IMG/VR virus record: IMGVR_UViG_3300031788_000039 | Location: 1-43,583 of that record | Strand: one strand, 5' to 3' | Length of the DNA: 43,583 bases | Origin: a virus | Shown: piece after piece, positions 1,637 through 31,179 of the stretch | Position numbering within the stretch: position 1 is the stretch's first letter | Layout of the letters: every line of letters starts with the position of its first letter | Notes under the pieces: model-generated | Database searches by the model: none | Seen by the model: only the letters and a program-made list of their open reading frames with translations | Told to the model about the DNA's origin: nothing | Made by a program: the position numbers and the translations under genes

Positions 1637-3015
1637 CGGTCGATCCAGTCGAAGTGCGGTATGTTTTTGTCTTCGCTCGGCTCCAAGTCTCGCATCACAT
1701 ACCTCGCCTCATCGTAATACAGGGTTGCGGTCCCCGGCGCGCCGTCTTTGTTTTTCTCAACGATCAATTCGATGAGGTGGTTCGGAACATACCCCGGCTC
1801 CTTTCGCCGGTAGTAGTCTTCGCGATGCAGGAGGATCGCAATGTCCGCGTCCTGCCCGAGCGTCCCCGAGTCGCGTAATCCATCGAGCGTCGGCCGCGCT
1901 TCGTTGCTCCCGCCGTTGGCGCGGTTCATCTGCGCCGCGGAGATTCCCACAACGTTCAAACTTTTCCAAAGTAGCTTCAGGCCCTTGCTGATTTTGCCAA
2001 GTTCGATGTTTCGATTCTCGTCGCTCTGCCCGTCGATCAGATGCAGGTGGTCGATCATAATCACGTCGCATGCGTGCTTAGCCTTCAGCACGTGCGCGGC
2101 GGCTTCGATGTCACTCAGCTTGCAGCTCGCGTCCTCGATCCAGATGCCGAGCTTGGAAAGCTCAGCGGCAGCCATCTCCACCGAAGGCCATTCCTCGGCG
2201 CTCACTGTGTTGAAGGCGATGCGGTTATTGGGCACAGCGCTCATCATGCTCAAAAGATTCTGGCAGATTTTCAATCCGGCCTCCTCGATTGAAATCAGAC
2301 CGACCTTGATTCCCTGCCAGGCGTAATTGTGCGCCAGCAATTTCAGTAGCGCTGATTTCCCCATGTAAGATCGGCCGGCGACGATCACGTTCTGCCCCAG
2401 CGGCAAGCCGCCAGTGATACCATCGAGCGTCTTGATGGACGTTGGCAATCGCGTGGCGTTATTGGCCGTTCGCGCCGCAATCACCTCGGGAACGATCTGG
2501 CTGATATGGCGGATGTTCGACGCGGAGCCCTGCATGGCGACCTTCATCGCTTTCGCCGAAAATTTCATCAGCATCTCAGCCGGTGAGTCGATGAGGTGAG
2601 GAGCGTATGCGTCTCGGAGGCATTCATTGCTCAAGCTGATCAGGTGCCTCAGCATCGCCTTCTCGCGAATAATCTTGGCGTAGTACTCCACGTGCGCGGC
2701 GCTGGGGACCGTGTTGAGGCAGAGGCCGAGATATTTTGCGCCGCCCACCTCCTCGGCGAGCTGGCGCATTCCCAATTCCTCGAACAGCGTCACCGGATCG
2801 AGTGGCGCTTTTGTGTCGAACATCTCAACGATCACGTCGAAGATGATTTGATGATCCGCCTGATAAAACGATTCGCGGTCGATCATGCCGCGAATAATGG
2901 GGACAGCGCTTTTGTCCAGCATAAGCGAGCCGATCAAACACATTTCGGCTTGGATCGAATGTGGAGGGAGCCGGTCGAATTGCTGGACGGTGGATTCGTC
3001 GATTAGGTGACTCAT
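1633..3015 (-). CDS. dnaB: Replicative DNA helicase, DnaB type
   Basis: Encodes 460 residues. It would unwind DNA ahead of the phage fork as a hexamer. The N-terminal helical domain (QAEMCLIGSLMLD, about residues 22-34) matches DnaB. The RecA-like core has Walker A GRSYMGKS (214-221) and Walker B CDVIMIDHLH (about 300). The C-terminal motif RDSGTLGQDADIAILLHRED is typical of DnaB. The start MSHLIDES at 3015 overlaps the stop of the gene at 3012-3278 (ATGA); an upstream in-frame ATG at 3051 is unlikely. It lies at the downstream end of the operon with the replisome organiser and two methyltransferases. No primase gene was found. Confidence 0.93.
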   Translation of the reverse strand: MSHLIDESTVQQFDRLPPHSIQAEMCLIGSLMLDKSAVPIIRGMIDRESFYQADHQIIFDVIVEMFDTKAPLDPVTLFEELGMRQLAEEVGGAKYLGLCLNTVPSAAHVEYYAKIIREKAMLRHLISLSNECLRDAYAPHLIDSPAEMLMKFSAKAMKVAMQGSASNIRHISQIVPEVIAARTANNATRLPTSIKTLDGITGGLPLGQNVIVAGRSYMGKSALLKLLAHNYAWQGIKVGLISIEEAGLKICQNLLSMMSAVPNNRIAFNTVSAEEWPSVEMAAAELSKLGIWIEDASCKLSDIEAAAHVLKAKHACDVIMIDHLHLIDGQSDENRNIELGKISKGLKLLWKSLNVVGISAAQMNRANGGSNEARPTLDGLRDSGTLGQDADIAILLHREDYYRRKEPGYVPNHLIELIVEKNKDGAPGTATLYYDEARYVMRDLEPSEDKNIPHFDWIDR

Positions 3016-3278
3016 TTTTGCCCCCTTACCAGCGCGCTGACCGCCGTGCATTTGAATAATCCTGGCTGCCTCGCACGCAACACGAATTCGCCGAAGCTGG
3101 TGATTTTATATGCTTTAGGTCCGATTCTTTGGGCGAGACCGGCCTTGCGCAGATCGTAGATTCGCCGGTAGCAGTCATGGGCGATCATTGCGCTTTTTTG
3201 TGCCAATAAAAGGTTCTGGCAAGGCCCGTAAACCATCAGGACGCCAAGGATTTTAATGTCTGTGTCGTCAGTGTTCAC
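3012..3278 (-). CDS. Small winged-helix-like protein
   Basis: Encodes 88 residues. The segment from about residue 33 (AHDCYRRIYDLRKAGLAQRI), then KAYKITSFGEFVL, reads as the recognition helix and wing of a small winged-helix DNA-binding domain. It overlaps the methyltransferase stop upstream and the helicase start downstream by four bases each, so all three are translationally coupled. A role as replication accessory or local regulator is inferred from position only. Confidence 0.6.
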   Translation of the reverse strand: MNTDDTDIKILGVLMVYGPCQNLLLAQKSAMIAHDCYRRIYDLRKAGLAQRIGPKAYKITSFGEFVLRARQPGLFKCTAVSALVRGQK

Positions 3279-4063
3279 ATCGCCTCCTTCGCACCGAAGA
3301 GGACGCCTTGCGACATTCGGTCAACCGCGCGATCGCAGAATGATTGATCTATTTCAATACCAATAAAGCGACGCCCCATGAGTTTGCAGGCTTCTGCCAC
3401 CCAGCCATGCCCCATAAATGGGTCAAGAACCGTTTCGCCGGGTTTTGAGTGAAGCGATATGAAGTGCGCGGCAAGTTCTATTGGCTTTGGGGTTGGATGA
3501 TCCGAATCCGAAGGGATGATTTTGCGTATCCCATATTGGCCCGGTCGGATTATGTTCTCTATTTTGTTCGTTTCGTCGTTCCAATTGCATGGCGCGCCAG
3601 GCTTTTCGGCTACCAGAACCGTTTCGTAGGAGCGACGGTAATGCCAGCCCATTCCCATTGGCCCCTTGTCCCAAATGATCATCTGTTTGAAGTTGAGATG
3701 CTCATCGATCCATAACGACCATCGCGCAAATTGTGGATCGGGACCGCCGCCGCCGCAGCAGCAGCAGCAGCAGCAGCCAGATTTTAGAATGCGTGAGAAG
3801 TGCGGCAGGGCTTCACGGAGTAAATCATTGGCCTCCGCCCCGTCGTTTGCGATTGGACGACCCGGCGGTGAATCCTCGCCGCAGGGAAGGCGACCTAGGG
3901 CGGCTTCCCGGCGGTGAATCAGGTCGCCGTTGTTGTTGTTGTTGTGTCCGTATGGCGGGTCCGTGATAATTAGATCAATCGAGCATGGATCAAGCATCGG
4001 TAGCACCTCCCGGCAATCTCCGTGAATTATGGTAATTCCATCCTGTTGGTAATACGGGCTCAC
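3275..4063 (-). CDS. DNA methyltransferase (N4/N6 amino type) with poly-Asn and poly-Cys tracts
   Basis: Encodes 262 residues. The catalytic motif TDPPYG lies near residue 34 and the AdoMet-binding motif VLDPFMGHG near residue 216, so motif IV precedes motif I as in beta-class DNA methyltransferases. HPTPKPIELAAHFI precedes motif I, as expected. Two homopolymers are encoded by trinucleotide runs: NNNNN at about residues 40-44 and CCCCCCC followed by GGGG at about 96-106. The latter is followed by PDPQFARWSLW. I believe homologues carry a similar Cys/Gly loop, but could not check this. It probably protects phage DNA from host restriction. Its stop overlaps the next gene. Confidence 0.88.
   Translation of the reverse strand: MSPYYQQDGITIIHGDCREVLPMLDPCSIDLIITDPPYGHNNNNNGDLIHRREAALGRLPCGEDSPPGRPIANDGAEANDLLREALPHFSRILKSGCCCCCCCGGGGPDPQFARWSLWIDEHLNFKQMIIWDKGPMGMGWHYRRSYETVLVAEKPGAPCNWNDETNKIENIIRPGQYGIRKIIPSDSDHPTPKPIELAAHFISLHSKPGETVLDPFMGHGWVAEACKLMGRRFIGIEIDQSFCDRAVDRMSQGVLFGAKEAM
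3744..3779. repeat. Trinucleotide tract encoding poly-Cys/poly-Gly
   Basis: On the plus strand a CCG run passes directly into about seven GCA units. In the methyltransferase frame (minus strand) these are TGC and GGC codons. The tract has a period of 3, so slippage would change loop length without breaking the frame. Confidence 0.85.
3929..3946. repeat. GTT/AAC trinucleotide tract encoding poly-Asn
   Basis: Five to six GTT units on the plus strand read as AAC codons in the methyltransferase, just after the DPPYG catalytic motif. This is the second in-frame triplet tract of the same gene. Confidence 0.85.
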
Positions 4064-4962
4064 GCTCTACCCCCGTTCTCCCCCGCCGTCGCGGGCGGGG
4101 AGGCGAGCGATGGCCCATTGATCAGCAGGATTTCCGGTGACGCGGTATCGTTCTGTTTGTCGCGCCGTCCCTGTGAAACGAGAGATTTGGTCATCATGCA
4201 ATCGCGAATGGTCCAGCCTGGATACAGTACCGCTAGATCAGGGTGCGCGTAATAACTGACGACAACGCGGGTTTTCTTGAATCGGCAGAGAGCTTTCGCC
4301 AGCCTCCGATGCGCGAGCCAATCGAAATCGTGAAGGTACGAGCAGCCTTTAACGAGGTAGGGAGGGTCCGCATAAATCACCACGCCATCGGCATCCTCGA
4401 TTTTTTCGCACAGCTCGATTCCGTCGCTGCTGAGGATAGAAACGTGGCGCAGTCGCCGCCTCCACGCCGGGATTGAGTCAACCGCACCGGCGAACCGCTT
4501 GGCCGCGTGTCCGCCATTTTTGGTGAACCGGCGAGCGAATCCCATATTGTTCGTCGCAGTTCCGGCAACACCATTCATCCCCTGCCAAGAGCATATGAAG
4601 TAGGCGAATGCCCTATCGGCACTCAGTCCGCTTTCCCACTTCTTTTCCGATAGCACTTCCTCACGAGCGACTTCAAATTCAACTTGTGAATTCATGGCTC
4701 TTCGCAATCGTCGGTACAGCTTCGGACCACCATCGCCGTCCTGAACGATCTGCGAGAGATTGATCAGGTCGCCATGGAGGTCGTTGACTGTTTCCATACT
4801 GCACGGAGGCTTGGCCAGCAGGACTGCCATCGAGCCACAGAACACTTCCCAATAGGCGCGGTGCGGTCCAATTTCTTCAATGATCACGGGGGCGAGCGTA
4901 CGCTTGCCGCCGAACCACGGCGACAACGCGCCGATGGTCATTTCGGAGTCCGGCGTGCTCAT
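4060..4962 (-). CDS. dam: DNA adenine methyltransferase, D12/Dam class
   Basis: Encodes 300 residues from the ATG at 4962, two bases after the previous stop, with GAGAGG upstream. PWFGGKRTLAP (about residues 15-25) is the AdoMet-binding motif of the Dam/D12 family. ADPPYLVKGCSYLHDFDW (about 215) is the catalytic DPPY motif. N6-adenine methylation is known for the family; GATC as target is likely but not shown. GATC sites remain common in this window, which agrees with self-methylation. Its last codons overlap the second methyltransferase, so two amino-methyltransferases are made from one message. Confidence 0.9.
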   Translation of the reverse strand: MSTPDSEMTIGALSPWFGGKRTLAPVIIEEIGPHRAYWEVFCGSMAVLLAKPPCSMETVNDLHGDLINLSQIVQDGDGGPKLYRRLRRAMNSQVEFEVAREEVLSEKKWESGLSADRAFAYFICSWQGMNGVAGTATNNMGFARRFTKNGGHAAKRFAGAVDSIPAWRRRLRHVSILSSDGIELCEKIEDADGVVIYADPPYLVKGCSYLHDFDWLAHRRLAKALCRFKKTRVVVSYYAHPDLAVLYPGWTIRDCMMTKSLVSQGRRDKQNDTASPEILLINGPSLASPPATAGENGGRA

Positions 4963-4964
4963 GG

Positions 4965-5780
4965 TCAAACCTCTCCGTGATGGACGATCGGCTGGACGGT
5001 GCGCGGGTCGGTGCGCGGGCGCGGCGGCGGCGATGAAGAATTGCCGCCAGGCTTGTTCGTCGCGCGCTCCATCCAGCCGTTGATAAATTTGGGCATCCCG
5101 ACCGGCGTCTTGCGCTTCGTGGGGTTGGATCTTATCCAAAGCAGCGCCTTGCGCGCTTCGAGCAGAACGTCGACGCCGACGAAGATGGACTGAAGCTCGG
5201 CCCGCTGCGATTCACAAAACGGCCAAGTCTCATCGTCGGATTTCTTCCCCTTGATCACGGGAAATTCAAGGAGCGGCTTCTCCGCGGATGGACGCTCGGC
5301 GGCCTCCGAGGAATCTTGTGGGTATGGGAGGGAGGGAAGGGGAGGTATACGAGGGAGGGAGGGAGGGAGGGAGGCATCCATGACCTGTTTTATGTTTGCC
5401 GCGCGGCATCCATTGTCCGCCGAATGGCGTCCATTGTCCGCCGTTTCTGGCGTTAAACCCTTGTCAATCCTGCGCGCGAGTCTTTTTTTGACGTACTCCG
5501 GGGCGTGCTTTTTGAGGTTGTGAATGAGGTAAATCGGCGGCTCTGAGCCTGTTTTGTCTAAAAACCCGCACACGAGCGCCGCCTCAGTGAATTCGCCCGA
5601 TTTACCAGGCCATTCGGCAGCGCATTCCACGTCCTCCGACTCGCCCAATTCGTCGTTCGCGGAGTCGTATCCGACGTGCCACATCATCTCCAATAACCCG
5701 AGCACGTACGGCGGCGGCAATTTAAGGATGCGCTGAAGGCGCCGGAACTTTGGATGGGTTCTGATTTCTGGGCGTGCCAT
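4965..5780 (-). CDS. Replisome organiser / helicase-loader-like replication protein
   Basis: Encodes 271 residues. The N-terminal domain (about residues 1-100: HPKFRRLQRILKLPPPYVLG, then LLEMMWHVGYDS and a short GFLD element) matches the winged-helix domain that opens many phage replication-initiation proteins. A proline/serine-rich linker (about 135-165) is encoded by the G-rich tract at 5326-5371. The C-terminal part (about 190-245) has ARKALLWIRSNPTKRKTPVG and KFINGWMERA, like the DnaD-type tail that contacts helicase or DNA. Its position three genes upstream of the DnaB gene supports an initiator or loader role. Confidence 0.75.
   Translation of the reverse strand: MARPEIRTHPKFRRLQRILKLPPPYVLGLLEMMWHVGYDSANDELGESEDVECAAEWPGKSGEFTEAALVCGFLDKTGSEPPIYLIHNLKKHAPEYVKKRLARRIDKGLTPETADNGRHSADNGCRAANIKQVMDASLPPSLPRIPPLPSLPYPQDSSEAAERPSAEKPLLEFPVIKGKKSDDETWPFCESQRAELQSIFVGVDVLLEARKALLWIRSNPTKRKTPVGMPKFINGWMERATNKPGGNSSSPPPRPRTDPRTVQPIVHHGEV
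5326..5371 (+). repeat. G-rich tract with two G-quadruplex-type motifs
   Basis: On the plus strand, GGGAGGGAGGGAAGGGG occupies 5326-5342 and five GGG runs separated by single A residues occupy 5353-5371. Both satisfy the four-run rule for intramolecular quadruplexes. The opposite (coding) strand encodes the Pro/Ser/Leu linker of the replication protein. Confidence 0.8.
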
Positions 5781-7464: not shown

Positions 7465-8517
7465 TCACTTGATCCTCCCGTCCAGCGCATCCAACCTGCC
7501 CGCCGCAACCGCCGCGTAAAACTCCGCGAACCGATCCGGCGTGAATGACTTTCCGCCGCAAAACTTCTCCAGCGCGCTCGCCAGAAACGGCCATTTGATC
7601 GATCCGCCCTTGGGCGTCTTCTCCTTCGCGAGCCTCAATAAGCCGTTCTGCCAGTCGTCCGAATCGAACAGCTCTTTGGCCCGAATCTCCATCGCCTCAG
7701 CCTCACTGATCTGAGAATGATCGGCATTCCCTGCCTGCGCGGATTGGTCGTCATCCTTGGAAGGCGACGGAGGGGCCGGTGGGACCGTCGTCTGCTTGGA
7801 CGCCTGCTCGCGCACATCGAGCATGTTGTGGAGTACAGCCAGCTTGCCGGTGCGGATGCCCTCGAATGTTTCAGAGCCGGCCACCTTGAGGAATTTGGTC
7901 TGATCGAATCCGCTGTGCTGGACGCGGGACCGCAGCGACTGCACGTCTTCGGCTGAAATGAATCCGCCCTCAAGGCGGGCGTCGTCATCTTTCTCCACCT
8001 GGATATTCAGCGCCGCCTTCAGCGCCTCGCGCTTGGCGAAGGTGAGGGCGCTGATGTCCTTCTGAGATTCGTTGGTGCCCGGCGGTCCCGATCCGATCCT
8101 GCACGACACCTCATTGACCACTGAGTGGCCGCCTGAATGAGACAGCGTGCAGAAGGCGCACACTCGCTTTTCGTCGGTCGATGCCGACGTGAAGCTGACC
8201 CCAAACCCATTGCGAGCGAGGTATGGGCCCACTGTCGCCATAATGTCTTCGATGGGCGCGTAAGCGTATCGCAGCTTGCCATCCTGCATAACCGCCTTCA
8301 TCGCGATGACCCTGGGCATCTCTGCCTGTAGCATCGCGAACGCCGCCGCAAACGCGCGCTTGGCGTCTACCGCGTCCATCTCCATCTTCAATCGGCAAAG
8401 CGTCTGGAGCCCTTCGGGGGTAATTCCCTTTTCGATCGCGAGCGTGATCATCGCCGTGACGGATGCGCCGTCGTTCACGGCGAGCGTCTGCGGTGTTGAG
8501 GTTGCGAGGTCGTTCAT
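7465..8517 (-). CDS. erf: ERF-family single-strand annealing protein
   Basis: Encodes 350 residues; AAAGGA lies eight bases before the ATG at 8517. The ERF core is visible at about residues 50-190: KRAFAAAFAMLQAEMPRV, then YAYAPIEDIMATVGPYLARN, GFGVSF and ISALTFAKREALKAALNI. The C-terminal 150 residues are a charged linker and a variable tail. ERF proteins pair complementary strands exposed by an exonuclease. The matching exonuclease is the YqaJ-type gene upstream in the same operon, so the phage has its own Red-like recombination pair. Confidence 0.88.
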   Translation of the reverse strand: MNDLATSTPQTLAVNDGASVTAMITLAIEKGITPEGLQTLCRLKMEMDAVDAKRAFAAAFAMLQAEMPRVIAMKAVMQDGKLRYAYAPIEDIMATVGPYLARNGFGVSFTSASTDEKRVCAFCTLSHSGGHSVVNEVSCRIGSGPPGTNESQKDISALTFAKREALKAALNIQVEKDDDARLEGGFISAEDVQSLRSRVQHSGFDQTKFLKVAGSETFEGIRTGKLAVLHNMLDVREQASKQTTVPPAPPSPSKDDDQSAQAGNADHSQISEAEAMEIRAKELFDSDDWQNGLLRLAKEKTPKGGSIKWPFLASALEKFCGGKSFTPDRFAEFYAAVAAGRLDALDGRIK

Positions 8518-12673: not shown

Positions 12674-12879
12674 CACTTCTCCGATTTCGTCAGGCGGCCT
12701 CGCGTCCCCTTTTCCTTCGGCGCGAATTCGATTGCTGCCCGCCTAACGCATTCGGGCGTCACGCCGAACCTTCTGGCGATCTCGGCAAGCGTGTTCCCCG
12801 GCAGCGCCTTCGCGATCTGTCGGCGGCGTTCCTGCCGATCCTTTCGCGCCATGTATCCGGCTGGTTTCGTTTTTGGCAT
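12673..12879 (-). CDS. Small helix-turn-helix regulator
   Basis: Encodes 68 residues from MPKTKPAGYMARKD at 12879. KALPGNTLAEIARRFGVTPE (about residues 26-45), then CVRRAAIEF, is a clear helix-turn-helix like those of sigma region 4 or transposase-type regulators. The flanks are basic. It heads the minus-strand early operon, directly behind a promoter that overlaps a perfect 10-base palindrome, so it probably controls its own operon. There is no room for a Shine-Dalgarno sequence; see the promoter entry. Confidence 0.7.
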   Translation of the reverse strand: MPKTKPAGYMARKDRQERRRQIAKALPGNTLAEIARRFGVTPECVRRAAIEFAPKEKGTRGRLTKSEK

Positions 12880-12886
12880 GGGCGGA

Positions 12887-12914
12887 AAAATATCAACTTT
12901 TACAACGTTGTCAA
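12887..12914 (-). promoter_or_regulatory. Leaderless promoter with palindromic operator for the early operon
   Basis: On the minus strand TTGACA (12914-12909) and TATTTT (12892-12887) are 16 bases apart. Seven bases follow before the ATG at 12879, so transcription should begin at or next to the start codon. A perfect palindrome ACAACGTTGT (12902-12911) overlaps the -35 box, as expected for an autorepressor site. The gap 12880-12988 is AT-rich and divergent. It must also hold the promoter for the plus-strand transcript. Confidence 0.6.
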
Positions 12915-12988
12915 CAAAATTTCCAATGTTTGCAAAAAAAAATTCCTTTGCGTTAAAGTGCCCGGCACCGAACGCCGATGAAATCCGC

Positions 12989-13153
12989 ATGAACAATAAA
13001 CTACTCAATGCGACGTCCGCCCTGTACGAAGAAACAACCGGCCACGCGCCGGAGCCCGGCAAGCTGGAGCGTGCCGTAGCCGAGCTGGAGTGCGACCTTG
13101 GCGAGCGCGATCCTGATTCTGTGGGAGAAATTCCAGAGCGCTTTGACTTCTGA
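12989..13153 (+). CDS. Hypothetical acidic 54-residue protein
   Basis: ATG at 12989, TGA at 13151-13153. The product begins MNNKLLNATSALYEET and is acidic throughout (ERDPDSVGEIPERFDF at the end). It is the only ORF between the divergent promoter region and the structured-RNA region. There is no strong ribosome site. It could be a small inhibitor-type protein or merely the leader of the RNA transcript. Confidence 0.45.
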   Translation: MNNKLLNATSALYEETTGHAPEPGKLERAVAELECDLGERDPDSVGEIPERFDF

Positions 13154-13159
13154 TTGCGC

Positions 13160-13608
13160 GCGCCCGCCCCTTTCTTCTCTCAGACACCACTGTTGAGGCG
13201 TCTATGCTGGGAATTGCTGAGTTCAAACGGCTCTTGTCCCTGGGTGGTGTCTGAGCTCCTGTCGTCAAAGGTGAAGACGGCGCAGGAAATTTGGGGACTG
13301 CCCAAGCCGAAACGAGTTCTCAACGCGGCCAGCCTCCGATCCGGCGGGAAAGACGGGAGCCTTAAAGCCGGGATGACGGTAAATACCGCTCCCGGTGGTG
13401 CGTGCTGGCCTGTTTCGATCTGACCGTTGGCTTTGTGAGTTTCCCGGCAAAGCCCGCTGCGTAACGGGAAATCCTGGGACCAATTTGCAAGGTGATACTT
13501 GATTCTTCTGTAAAGGAACGGATATGCTGTTTCCGTTCGCTCTGCGTCAAAGGTTCAAGCGAATCACGGGGCCGGATGATTGGTCGTCATCGCGGCCCTC
13601 TTTTTTGC
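13160..13608 (+). ncRNA. Candidate large structured noncoding RNA (about 450 nt)
   Basis: No convincing ORF exists on either strand, but perfect helices cover the stretch on the plus strand. Pairs are 13180-13190 with 13244-13254 (11 bp); 13291-13295 with 13300-13304; 13308-13313 with 13412-13417 and, inside it, 13327-13333 with 13404-13410 (7 bp); 13354-13360 with 13388-13394 (7 bp). Further pairs are 13429-13435 with 13448-13454 (7 bp), whose loop 13440-13446 pairs with 13465-13471 (7 bp pseudoknot), and 13516-13522 with 13532-13538 (7 bp). An intrinsic terminator closes it. It did not match tmRNA, RNase P, a group I core or a riboswitch that I know. Boundaries are approximate. Confidence 0.65.
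13568..13606 (+). terminator. Strong intrinsic terminator ending the structured RNA
   Basis: GGGCCG and GATGA (13569-13579 region) pair with TCATC and CGGCCC (13587-13598) with one bulged G. TCTTTTTT follows. The T run exists only on the plus strand, so it ends a plus-strand transcript rather than the tail operon that converges from the right. It is the main proof that 13160-13600 is transcribed rightwards. Confidence 0.85.
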
Positions 13609-13640
13609 GCCGTAAGAGTAGCCCCGGAGAATCGCGTCTG

Positions 13641-14024
13641 TCAAATGAGCGGATACAACTGGTTTAGTTCGTCCCTGCGCGCAGAGCACCCGCATTCAAA
13701 CCCCAGACTCGTCACCAGCGCCTTGAACACGATCCCTCCCACCGCCAGATTCCGCTCGATGACATCACCTATCCCCCGGTCCCCCGACTCCGCCATGTCG
13801 GCCAGCGCGAGCGCCCCGGCTTTCCACTCCTCTCTCGGCACCGGCTTTAAGGGGACGGGAGCGGGCCGGGGCGGGGGATTGGCGAAATAACCGCGAGGGC
13901 ATTTCTCTGATTCTGCGTGTTCCCGAATATCCGCGCCGTCTTCAGGGCAAGGACATGTGCCTGAGCACTTCTTTTTTTGCTCGATATCGCATTGCAGGCA
14001 GATTATTAAAAGTGCGTGGTTCAT
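13641..14024 (-). CDS. Cys-containing late protein at the end of the tail operon
   Basis: Encodes 127 residues from MNHALLIICLQCDIEQ at 14024 (TGATG overlap). Cys cluster in KKKCSGTCPCPED and SEKCPRGYF. A Pro-rich link (NPPPRPAPVPLKPVP) leads to a helical C-terminus ending GFECGCSARRDELNQLYPLI. That C-terminal CGC-RR-LN pattern recurs in uncharacterised phage late proteins. It is the last gene of the minus-strand virion operon. A zinc-binding or tail-tip accessory role is possible but not shown. Confidence 0.6.
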   Translation of the reverse strand: MNHALLIICLQCDIEQKKKCSGTCPCPEDGADIREHAESEKCPRGYFANPPPRPAPVPLKPVPREEWKAGALALADMAESGDRGIGDVIERNLAVGGIVFKALVTSLGFECGCSARRDELNQLYPLI

Positions 14025-15022
14025 CAGAAATATGGCACCATCGTGATCGTCCCCCCGTAGAACCACCATCTAAAAGTCGAAGCCGTTTCAGTGTTCTGGA
14101 GGACAATCGAATCGGTGCAATTCGCGTTTCCCGATGTCACAACGAAAGCAGAATCTGTGAACCAAGTGTTTCCAGAATTTGTATTGTCTGGAAAAACACT
14201 CCCGCTGAAAGGCGCGTTGCCGGCCGAACCCGTTCCGAATCCGCATCTGTTGGTCCACTCCAATCCCAATGCGGAATGTGTTGGCGGAGGCGGATCAGAT
14301 GGAAGATACAGTTGCGGCCCTCCTGATCCAAGATAATAAGAATAAATACAGCATGACGACGAACCGCACGGCCTGGCCCCCAACTGGTTATCGATTCCGT
14401 TTAACTGAAGGTTGTACGTTCCGTCGAGTGACCCAATGGGATAACCAGACCCTGCGATGTGCCCGGTGCCGCCAGTCCATCCGGCAAAGGTGCACATATA
14501 TCCCTGCGGGGTCGTTTGGCTGAGGCTGTCGCAGCATCCACAGTGATAGCACACTGGGCAGTCAGTATTGGCGCAACTGTTGGTGCTCCCACTGACCTTG
14601 GACATTGCTGCATTTGTTGGCGTAAGCCCCGATGTCGAAGCGATCGTTGCAAGCGTGAAGCATGGCCCCAAGCTCGGATAAAAAACAGTATCTCCCGCCC
14701 CTACTCCGCTCGGAACGTCCTGAGGCCGTGCATAAAGCGTCATTGTTCCACCGCAGCACGGCGACAGCCCCAGCGCCCCACAGCAGCACGGATCGCTCGC
14801 CCCGGCGACGACGATGCCGTTACTGCGGACCTTGATAGCCCCAGCACTGCTCACTTGGATGCCGTTGCCCGCATTCGTCGCGTCGACGCCGCCGCGCCAT
14901 CGGTTCGGCATCCAGCGGTTGCGACGGGCCGGGAACGTCGGGGCGCGGCGGGGATGCCGGACCTTGCCGCATGTCGGGCAGTAGTCGGGGGCGATGATTT
15001 TGCGGGGCGGGGCGAAGATCAT
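14024..15022 (-). CDS. Cysteine-rich tail or fibre protein
   Basis: Encodes 332 residues from MIFAPPRKIIAPDYCPTCGK at 15022 (ATGA overlap). More than 20 Cys occur in clusters: PCCCGALGLSPCCGG, NTDCPVCYHCGCCDS, SSSCCIYSYY. The middle and C-terminus are Gly/Ser/Thr-rich and beta-like (GNAPFSGSVFPDNTNSGNTW). Base composition is lower in GC than in the neighbouring tail genes. Its position at the distal end of the tail operon suits a receptor-binding or fibre protein; zinc or disulphide stabilisation is inferred. No family was recognised. Confidence 0.55.
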   Translation of the reverse strand: MIFAPPRKIIAPDYCPTCGKVRHPRRAPTFPARRNRWMPNRWRGGVDATNAGNGIQVSSAGAIKVRSNGIVVAGASDPCCCGALGLSPCCGGTMTLYARPQDVPSGVGAGDTVFYPSLGPCFTLATIASTSGLTPTNAAMSKVSGSTNSCANTDCPVCYHCGCCDSLSQTTPQGYMCTFAGWTGGTGHIAGSGYPIGSLDGTYNLQLNGIDNQLGARPCGSSSCCIYSYYLGSGGPQLYLPSDPPPPTHSALGLEWTNRCGFGTGSAGNAPFSGSVFPDNTNSGNTWFTDSAFVVTSGNANCTDSIVLQNTETASTFRWWFYGGTITMVPYF

Positions 15023-30189: not shown

Positions 30190-31179
30190 TTAAGCGACGC
30201 GGATCGAACGGTCGAAGCGGTAGTAGCCTTCGACAAATCGCTGCTTGAGGTTGATGCGCACGCGGTTGGTGTTGGATTCAAATTCGCTGCCGAACCCGAG
30301 GGCCTTGGACTGGATGCCGTAGCTCTCGGTGTACACAAACGGACGTTGAGGCGCGCCGACATAGTGCAGATACCAGGCGCTCGCACTTGTGAGGTCGAGG
30401 TATCCATCAGCAACGATCGTCGCGATCCCATTGAGTCCGATTTCCTTGATGCCGCTGCCGGTGACGGCGGCGGTGCCGGAAGTGGTGACGCTGGCGGGGA
30501 TCGGATTGAGGCTGTTGAAGAGAACTTGCCGGAATGGCACCTCAAGCGCCACGGGGCAATGGATGATGAGCTGGTCGGCGCCAAACCGAAGCCGCGGATT
30601 GAGCAGCCGCTTGGCGTTGTCAACGAACGTCCGCATCCGGGTTACGGCGGTATTCAGGTCGGTCGTCAACTGCGCGACGTTGGTCCCGGTCGCGGTGACG
30701 ATGTTGTTGATGAGGTACGCGATCGTCTTGGGGCCGCCGGGCCAGTAGTGGCCGGTGGCGCTGTAAAAGGGCACGCCATCGTAAGCCAGGTTCGTGGTCC
30801 CGGCCTCCACGATGTTCACGGAGAGGTTGTAGCTCGGGAAGATCTTCGCGCTCGACGCGCCTTCCTGAGTCTTTTCCTCGAACGTGTACGCCTTGGATTC
30901 GCGCATGAGGTCGGAGTTGTAATCGAGCGTCAGCGCGTAGGTGTTCTTGCTGTACGTCTGCACAACAGCAACCTCGGTGCTGACCGCCTCGCGCTCGCCG
31001 TCGAAGGCGACGGGGAAGGCCACCTTGTCCTGAATCGGAAGTTTGATGTACGCCTCGTCGGCGCTTTTCACTTCCGAGCAGATCTTGGGGTAGAGCGGAT
31101 CGTCCGCCTCCATGATTTCCGCCTCGACGATGCGGGTCAGATCTTTCAGTGTCGCGTTCGTGTCTCCGATGATTTCCAT
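30190..31179 (-). CDS. Major capsid protein, Mu gpT-like
   Basis: Encodes 329 residues with AGGAGACTGCT before the ATG. The opening MEIIGDTNATLKDLTRIVEA, the segment YPKICSEVKSADEAYIKLPI and the core LDYNSDLMRESKAYTFEEKT resemble Mu-type major head subunits (gpT family) more than lambda gpE. The C-terminal KALGFGSEFESNTNRVRINL also fits. It lies after protease, scaffold and decoration genes. It would form the shell, several hundred copies per head. The family call is good in position and moderate in sequence. Confidence 0.75.
   Translation of the reverse strand: MEIIGDTNATLKDLTRIVEAEIMEADDPLYPKICSEVKSADEAYIKLPIQDKVAFPVAFDGEREAVSTEVAVVQTYSKNTYALTLDYNSDLMRESKAYTFEEKTQEGASSAKIFPSYNLSVNIVEAGTTNLAYDGVPFYSATGHYWPGGPKTIAYLINNIVTATGTNVAQLTTDLNTAVTRMRTFVDNAKRLLNPRLRFGADQLIIHCPVALEVPFRQVLFNSLNPIPASVTTSGTAAVTGSGIKEIGLNGIATIVADGYLDLTSASAWYLHYVGAPQRPFVYTESYGIQSKALGFGSEFESNTNRVRINLKQRFVEGYYRFDRSIRVA

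Follow-up and report, generated by a model that had tools for sequence, protein, structure and literature searches.

A replaceable noncoding cassette with a predicted rightward terminator between convergent genes of a tailed phage

We describe a 487-bp block (positions 13154-13640) in the virus record IMGVR_UViG_3300031788_000039, the whole 43,583-base stretch of which is hereafter called the window. Genes for terminase, portal and head protease identify the window as that of a tailed phage, nearly all main genes of which lie on the minus strand. The block lies between the early genes and the point where the leftward tail operon ends, at the boundary between structural and early modules, and is flanked exactly by the stop codons of two facing genes. 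Our firmest result comes from comparison with a related phage, which indicates that it is a 487-bp presence/absence cassette with exact stop-codon borders, either gained in the window or lost in the relative; sequence analysis supports its being noncoding and having a rightward terminator of its own. The reading that we tentatively prefer takes this replaceable noncoding cassette for the 3' portion of a transcript that runs rightward and stops at approximately 13605. The original prediction had placed a large structured RNA at 13160-13608; the noncoding character of that interval stood, and its borders gave way to those of the actual block, 13154-13640, which are set by the stop codons. The features considered here are as follows.

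Positions 12989-13153, plus strand: gene for a 54-aa protein directly upstream of the block, with its stop codon TGA at 13151-13153.
Positions 13154-13640, no strand assigned: noncoding insert of 487 bp, with an empty site in the related phage (L002/L003).
Positions 13179-13255, plus strand: hairpin predicted from sequence, with a 13-bp closing helix (CTCAGACACCACT/GGTGGTGTCTGAG) and a large loop.
Positions 13277-13613, plus strand: predicted multibranched core of 337 nt, closed by a 13-bp helix (13277-13289/13601-13613).
Positions 13429-13471, plus strand: possible H-type pseudoknot, GGCTTTG/CAAAGCC with TTTCCCG/CGGGAAA.
Positions 13568-13606, plus strand: predicted intrinsic terminator, a 12-13-bp hairpin with one bulge and a 5-nt loop, then TCTTTTTT.
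Positions 13641-14069, minus strand: final gene of the tail operon, which reads leftward towards the block, with its stop codon at 13641-13643.

The related phage contig, L002 (L003 is the same contig in the opposite orientation), shares early genes with the window at approximately 76-90% DNA identity and in the same order. In L002 the small gene runs straight into the end of the convergent gene, and exactly 487 bp are missing. When 13154-13640 was excised in silico, the flanks joined as TGATCAA, matching the relative, in which the two convergent stop codons overlap (TGATCA); in the window, TGA and TCA stand on either side of the insert. That the borders appear exact is due in part to selection acting on the coding flanks alone. 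The 54-aa gene has a homologue in L002 (56% identical) and a phage-gene-like coding log-odds of 0.17, and on these measures it is a real, conserved gene; the C-terminal coding sequence of the tail-operon gene 13641-14069 is conserved in L002 as well. As the relative keeps the small gene without the cassette, the small gene does not need it. A search for sister phages via the tail protein and terminase returned none, and one via RusA and the small gene returned L002, L003 and L004 only.

A second cassette, at 3008-4956 of the window (approximately 1.95 kb), is absent from L003, where its flanks are adjacent; its content is a gene for an N6/N4 DNA methylase with Asn and Cys runs (3275-4063) and the greater part of one for a D12-class adenine methyltransferase (4060-5139). 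Positions 2840-2995 of L002, upstream of its small gene, carry repeated CACGATTCTGTGATAAC-like motifs that resemble an operator region.

That the block closes with a terminator facing the plus strand only and convergent to the tail operon had been proposed originally and was confirmed by our analysis: a hairpin of 30 bases (13570-13599, GGGCCGGATGATTGGTCGTCATCGCGGCCC; -19 kcal/mol) is directly followed at its 3' side by TCTTTTTT (approximately 13599-13606), that is, a stable G+C-rich hairpin with an immediate U-run. Of 92 candidates across the window it is one of the best, and a weaker form of the same terminator was also called in a separate scan. That the predicted terminator acts rightward only is well supported. 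A leftward candidate, at 13037, sits inside the small gene, so that the two convergent transcripts may share the entire block. Within 12850-14100 no plus-strand promoter was found with a consensus that may not be of this phage's type, and the sole consensus promoter in the area faces left. The terminator-hairpin stretch 13578-13591 is identical over 14 bases to 7742-7755 of the plus strand, inside an ERF-like gene (7465-8517), and RNA from the block would therefore be complementary to that mRNA; approximately 0.15 such 14-base matches are expected by chance.

In the preferred reading, a rightward transcript would start upstream of the 54-aa gene, run through 13154-13606 and be stopped at approximately 13605 by the terminator, which would keep rightward transcription from entering the convergent tail operon. 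A stable fold upstream of the terminator might protect the 3' end, or might be released as a phage RNA, conceivably with a role in trans. At the level of sequence, three parts of this reading are established, namely the lack of coding signal, the exact indel between stop codons and the terminator-grade hairpin with its U-run. The reading is favoured by the exact empty site, the conserved small gene in the same direction, the rightward-only terminator, the lack of protein signal and a folding better than that of shuffles (z of -2.3 for the block and -4.2 for the core). Against it count the lack of a clear rightward promoter, the small gene that stands without the cassette in the relative, a folding energy that is not strand-specific and a conflict between the terminator and the closing helix of the core.

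Somewhat unlikely, in our estimate, is that the block has no function and is filler, left over from a cassette that was lost or exchanged, in which selection would act on the terminator alone and helices would arise by chance at 57% G+C. With the unbiased borders of the indel, the whole block has a folding z of about -2.3 versus shuffles, alike on both strands (-2.28 on plus and -2.62 on minus for 13160-13608), so that folding energy does not single out the plus strand; among same-length windows of the phage it falls in the best 4% (plus) or 1% (minus), a modest rank that counts in favour of filler. The same holds for the many perfect helices of the original prediction, which exist (including CTCAGACACCACT/GGTGGTGTCTGAG and GGCCAGC/GCTGGCC) but are not, by their number, a sign of structure: there are 57 in total versus 51.5±7.7 in dinucleotide shuffles, and 12 strong local ones versus 7.0±2.6, with 6% of shuffles reaching 12. 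A potential pseudoknot was likewise found where a pseudoknot had been claimed; it competes with the minimum-free-energy (MFE) pairing, and 27% of shuffles contain a comparable one. Helix number and pseudoknot were rejected as evidence of structure, both being within the range of shuffles. The lack of homologues and the complete absence of the block from the related phage also agree with filler, as do faint signs that the block and the adjacent gene are related in inverted orientation. These signs consist of two exact inverted 12-mers (13272-13283/13933-13944 and 13360-13371/13841-13852) that share nearly one diagonal (local alignment p about 0.003) and are possibly the trace of an inverted duplication, or chance. 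A frameshift-tolerant protein comparison of the insert with that gene gave no similarity, and such lack of a protein-level trace of a decayed copy argues against filler, as do the z of -4.2 of the core and the 13-bp hairpin, which are at least suggestive. Moreover, phage genomes rarely retain approximately 500 bp of filler.

The block may give rise to a dedicated structured RNA. A trans-acting large phage RNA of a new class, in which core and 5' hairpin domain would assemble into a compact particle that acts as RNA, akin to GOLLD or ROOL in kind and not in descent, appears unlikely to us; that there is a new class of large phage RNAs, approximately 340-440 nt long and built of a hairpin domain at the 5' end and a core of five branches within the 13-bp closing helix, gained and lost as a unit between convergent genes, we regard as more doubtful still. 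The core speaks for such an RNA, with an MFE of -146 kcal/mol and a z of -4.19, no shuffle being as stable, although its borders were picked only after the closing helix had been seen; it lies in the top 0.2% of windows, where coding windows at 30745 and 32313 score similarly. Judged as a fold beyond composition, the evidence thus amounts to a z of -2.3 for the whole block and of -4.2 for a hand-chosen core, with coding windows reaching similar values. The predicted core consists of five contiguous domains with scarcely any linkers. An equally strong local helix as in the 5' hairpin (13179-13255) occurs in just 1.3% of shuffles; its loop contains the start of a 16-codon ORF (13204-13254) with GAGG upstream. 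The closing helix, which extends beyond the end at 13608 given in the original prediction and was unreported there, includes two G-U pairs possible on the plus strand only, and is borderline (7% of shuffles). Gain or loss of the block as a unit would also suit an RNA. Against an RNA stand, in addition to the choice of borders and the coding windows, the chance-level pseudoknot and helix number, a minus strand that folds about as well and the lack of a homologue in any searched collection.

Because the closing helix takes in the U-run and bases past it, a transcript stopped by the terminator could not complete it. Stopping at the U-run would leave the G+C-rich half of the helix, beyond approximately 13606, untranscribed, so that the main product could not fully combine the best-scoring fold with use of the terminator.

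Elsewhere, a plus-strand ORF (371-1003) contains many RDGYDRTGYDRAGY-type repeats, and nowhere in the window are folding z-scores stronger than those of its DNA on the minus strand. Within the insert, CGTCAAAGGT occurs twice (13263-13272 and 13545-13554), and the end of the small gene contains CTTTGAC (13141-13147), complementary to part of that sequence.

The whole window gave no match to Rfam at the gathering score, and with permissive filters over positions 12900-13700 the best match was to an unrelated family (E = 2.5). No tRNA or tmRNA was detected, ARAGORN finding no tRNA in the 43.6 kb. The suggestion of a distant relative of GOLLD or ROOL thus finds no support, there being neither a covariance-model match nor a tRNA in the window. 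A nucleotide search for homologues, which the original prediction had called for, yielded none in any collection searched. Blastn of the block against phages and plasmids gave chance matches of 23-32 nt only, and a scan of IMG/VR with three motifs from the core (17-19-nt ones, matched exactly, and a spaced one) gave no match; one 18-mer had 13 matches in GTDB genomes, none with flanking similarity. Blastn in 392, 388, 395 and 398 genomes sampled from four phyla (1,573 in total) gave matches of 21-64 nt, which were taken as chance; the phyla were those of four chance-hit genomes, one titled Planctomycetota. Motif scans find close relatives only, and distant homologues may therefore exist. The planctomycete host that had been assumed received no support, the portal protein being without match in 294 genomes of that phylum.

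That the block lacks plausible genes, as originally stated, agrees with coding statistics, family searches and database searches, all empty for the frames tested: no ORF in 13154-13640 has codon statistics resembling those of typical main genes, and its frames matched no family and, where searched, no phage or plasmid record. Orphan small proteins, encoded for example by a 47-codon frame (13524-13667) or the 16-codon frame at 13204-13254, are in our view very unlikely. Both have Shine-Dalgarno-like signals at good spacing (AAAGGA shortly before the ATG of the former, GAGG ahead of that of the latter), but their codon statistics are below those of all main genes except the weakest, with negative values for the 47-codon frame, and tblastn of 13524-13664 against phages and plasmids gave no match. 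Least probable is that the block works at the level of DNA, for instance as an origin of replication or a site of recombination, with inverted repeats that have their role in the DNA itself: the about equal folding of the strands and the position at the module border would fit this, but there are no iterons or repeat arrays and no clear GC-skew turn at the block, and the related phage without the block must replicate too.

If the fold is true, the block would represent another large phage RNA of unknown function, carried as a precise presence/absence cassette, and the two phage forms, with and without it, could be compared to learn what carrying it does. If the fold is false, the case would illustrate that counting helices and spotting pseudoknots can, in 450 nt of G+C-rich phage DNA, yield seemingly convincing RNAs by chance.

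Among known systems, GOLLD and ROOL resemble the block as phage-borne noncoding stretches with a complex predicted fold and a possible pseudoknot; the block differs in having no covariance-model match and no tRNA in the window. GOLLD and ROOL are often found near tRNA islands (PMC12286853), a neighbourhood absent here, which is a frequent association and no strict requirement. The block is also shorter than GOLLD, many members of which exceed 800 nt (PMC12286853). With terminators between convergent phage genes it has in common the G+C-rich hairpin and U-run, which here account for only approximately 40 of the 487 bases. Phage 'morons' are additional cassettes that sit between conserved genes and bring their own signals. 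In the block, unlike in these, neither a coding gene nor a convincing own promoter was found; it resembles them as a precise extra cassette with a terminator, present between two conserved neighbours in the window and absent from a close relative, L002, where the empty site reads TGATCA.
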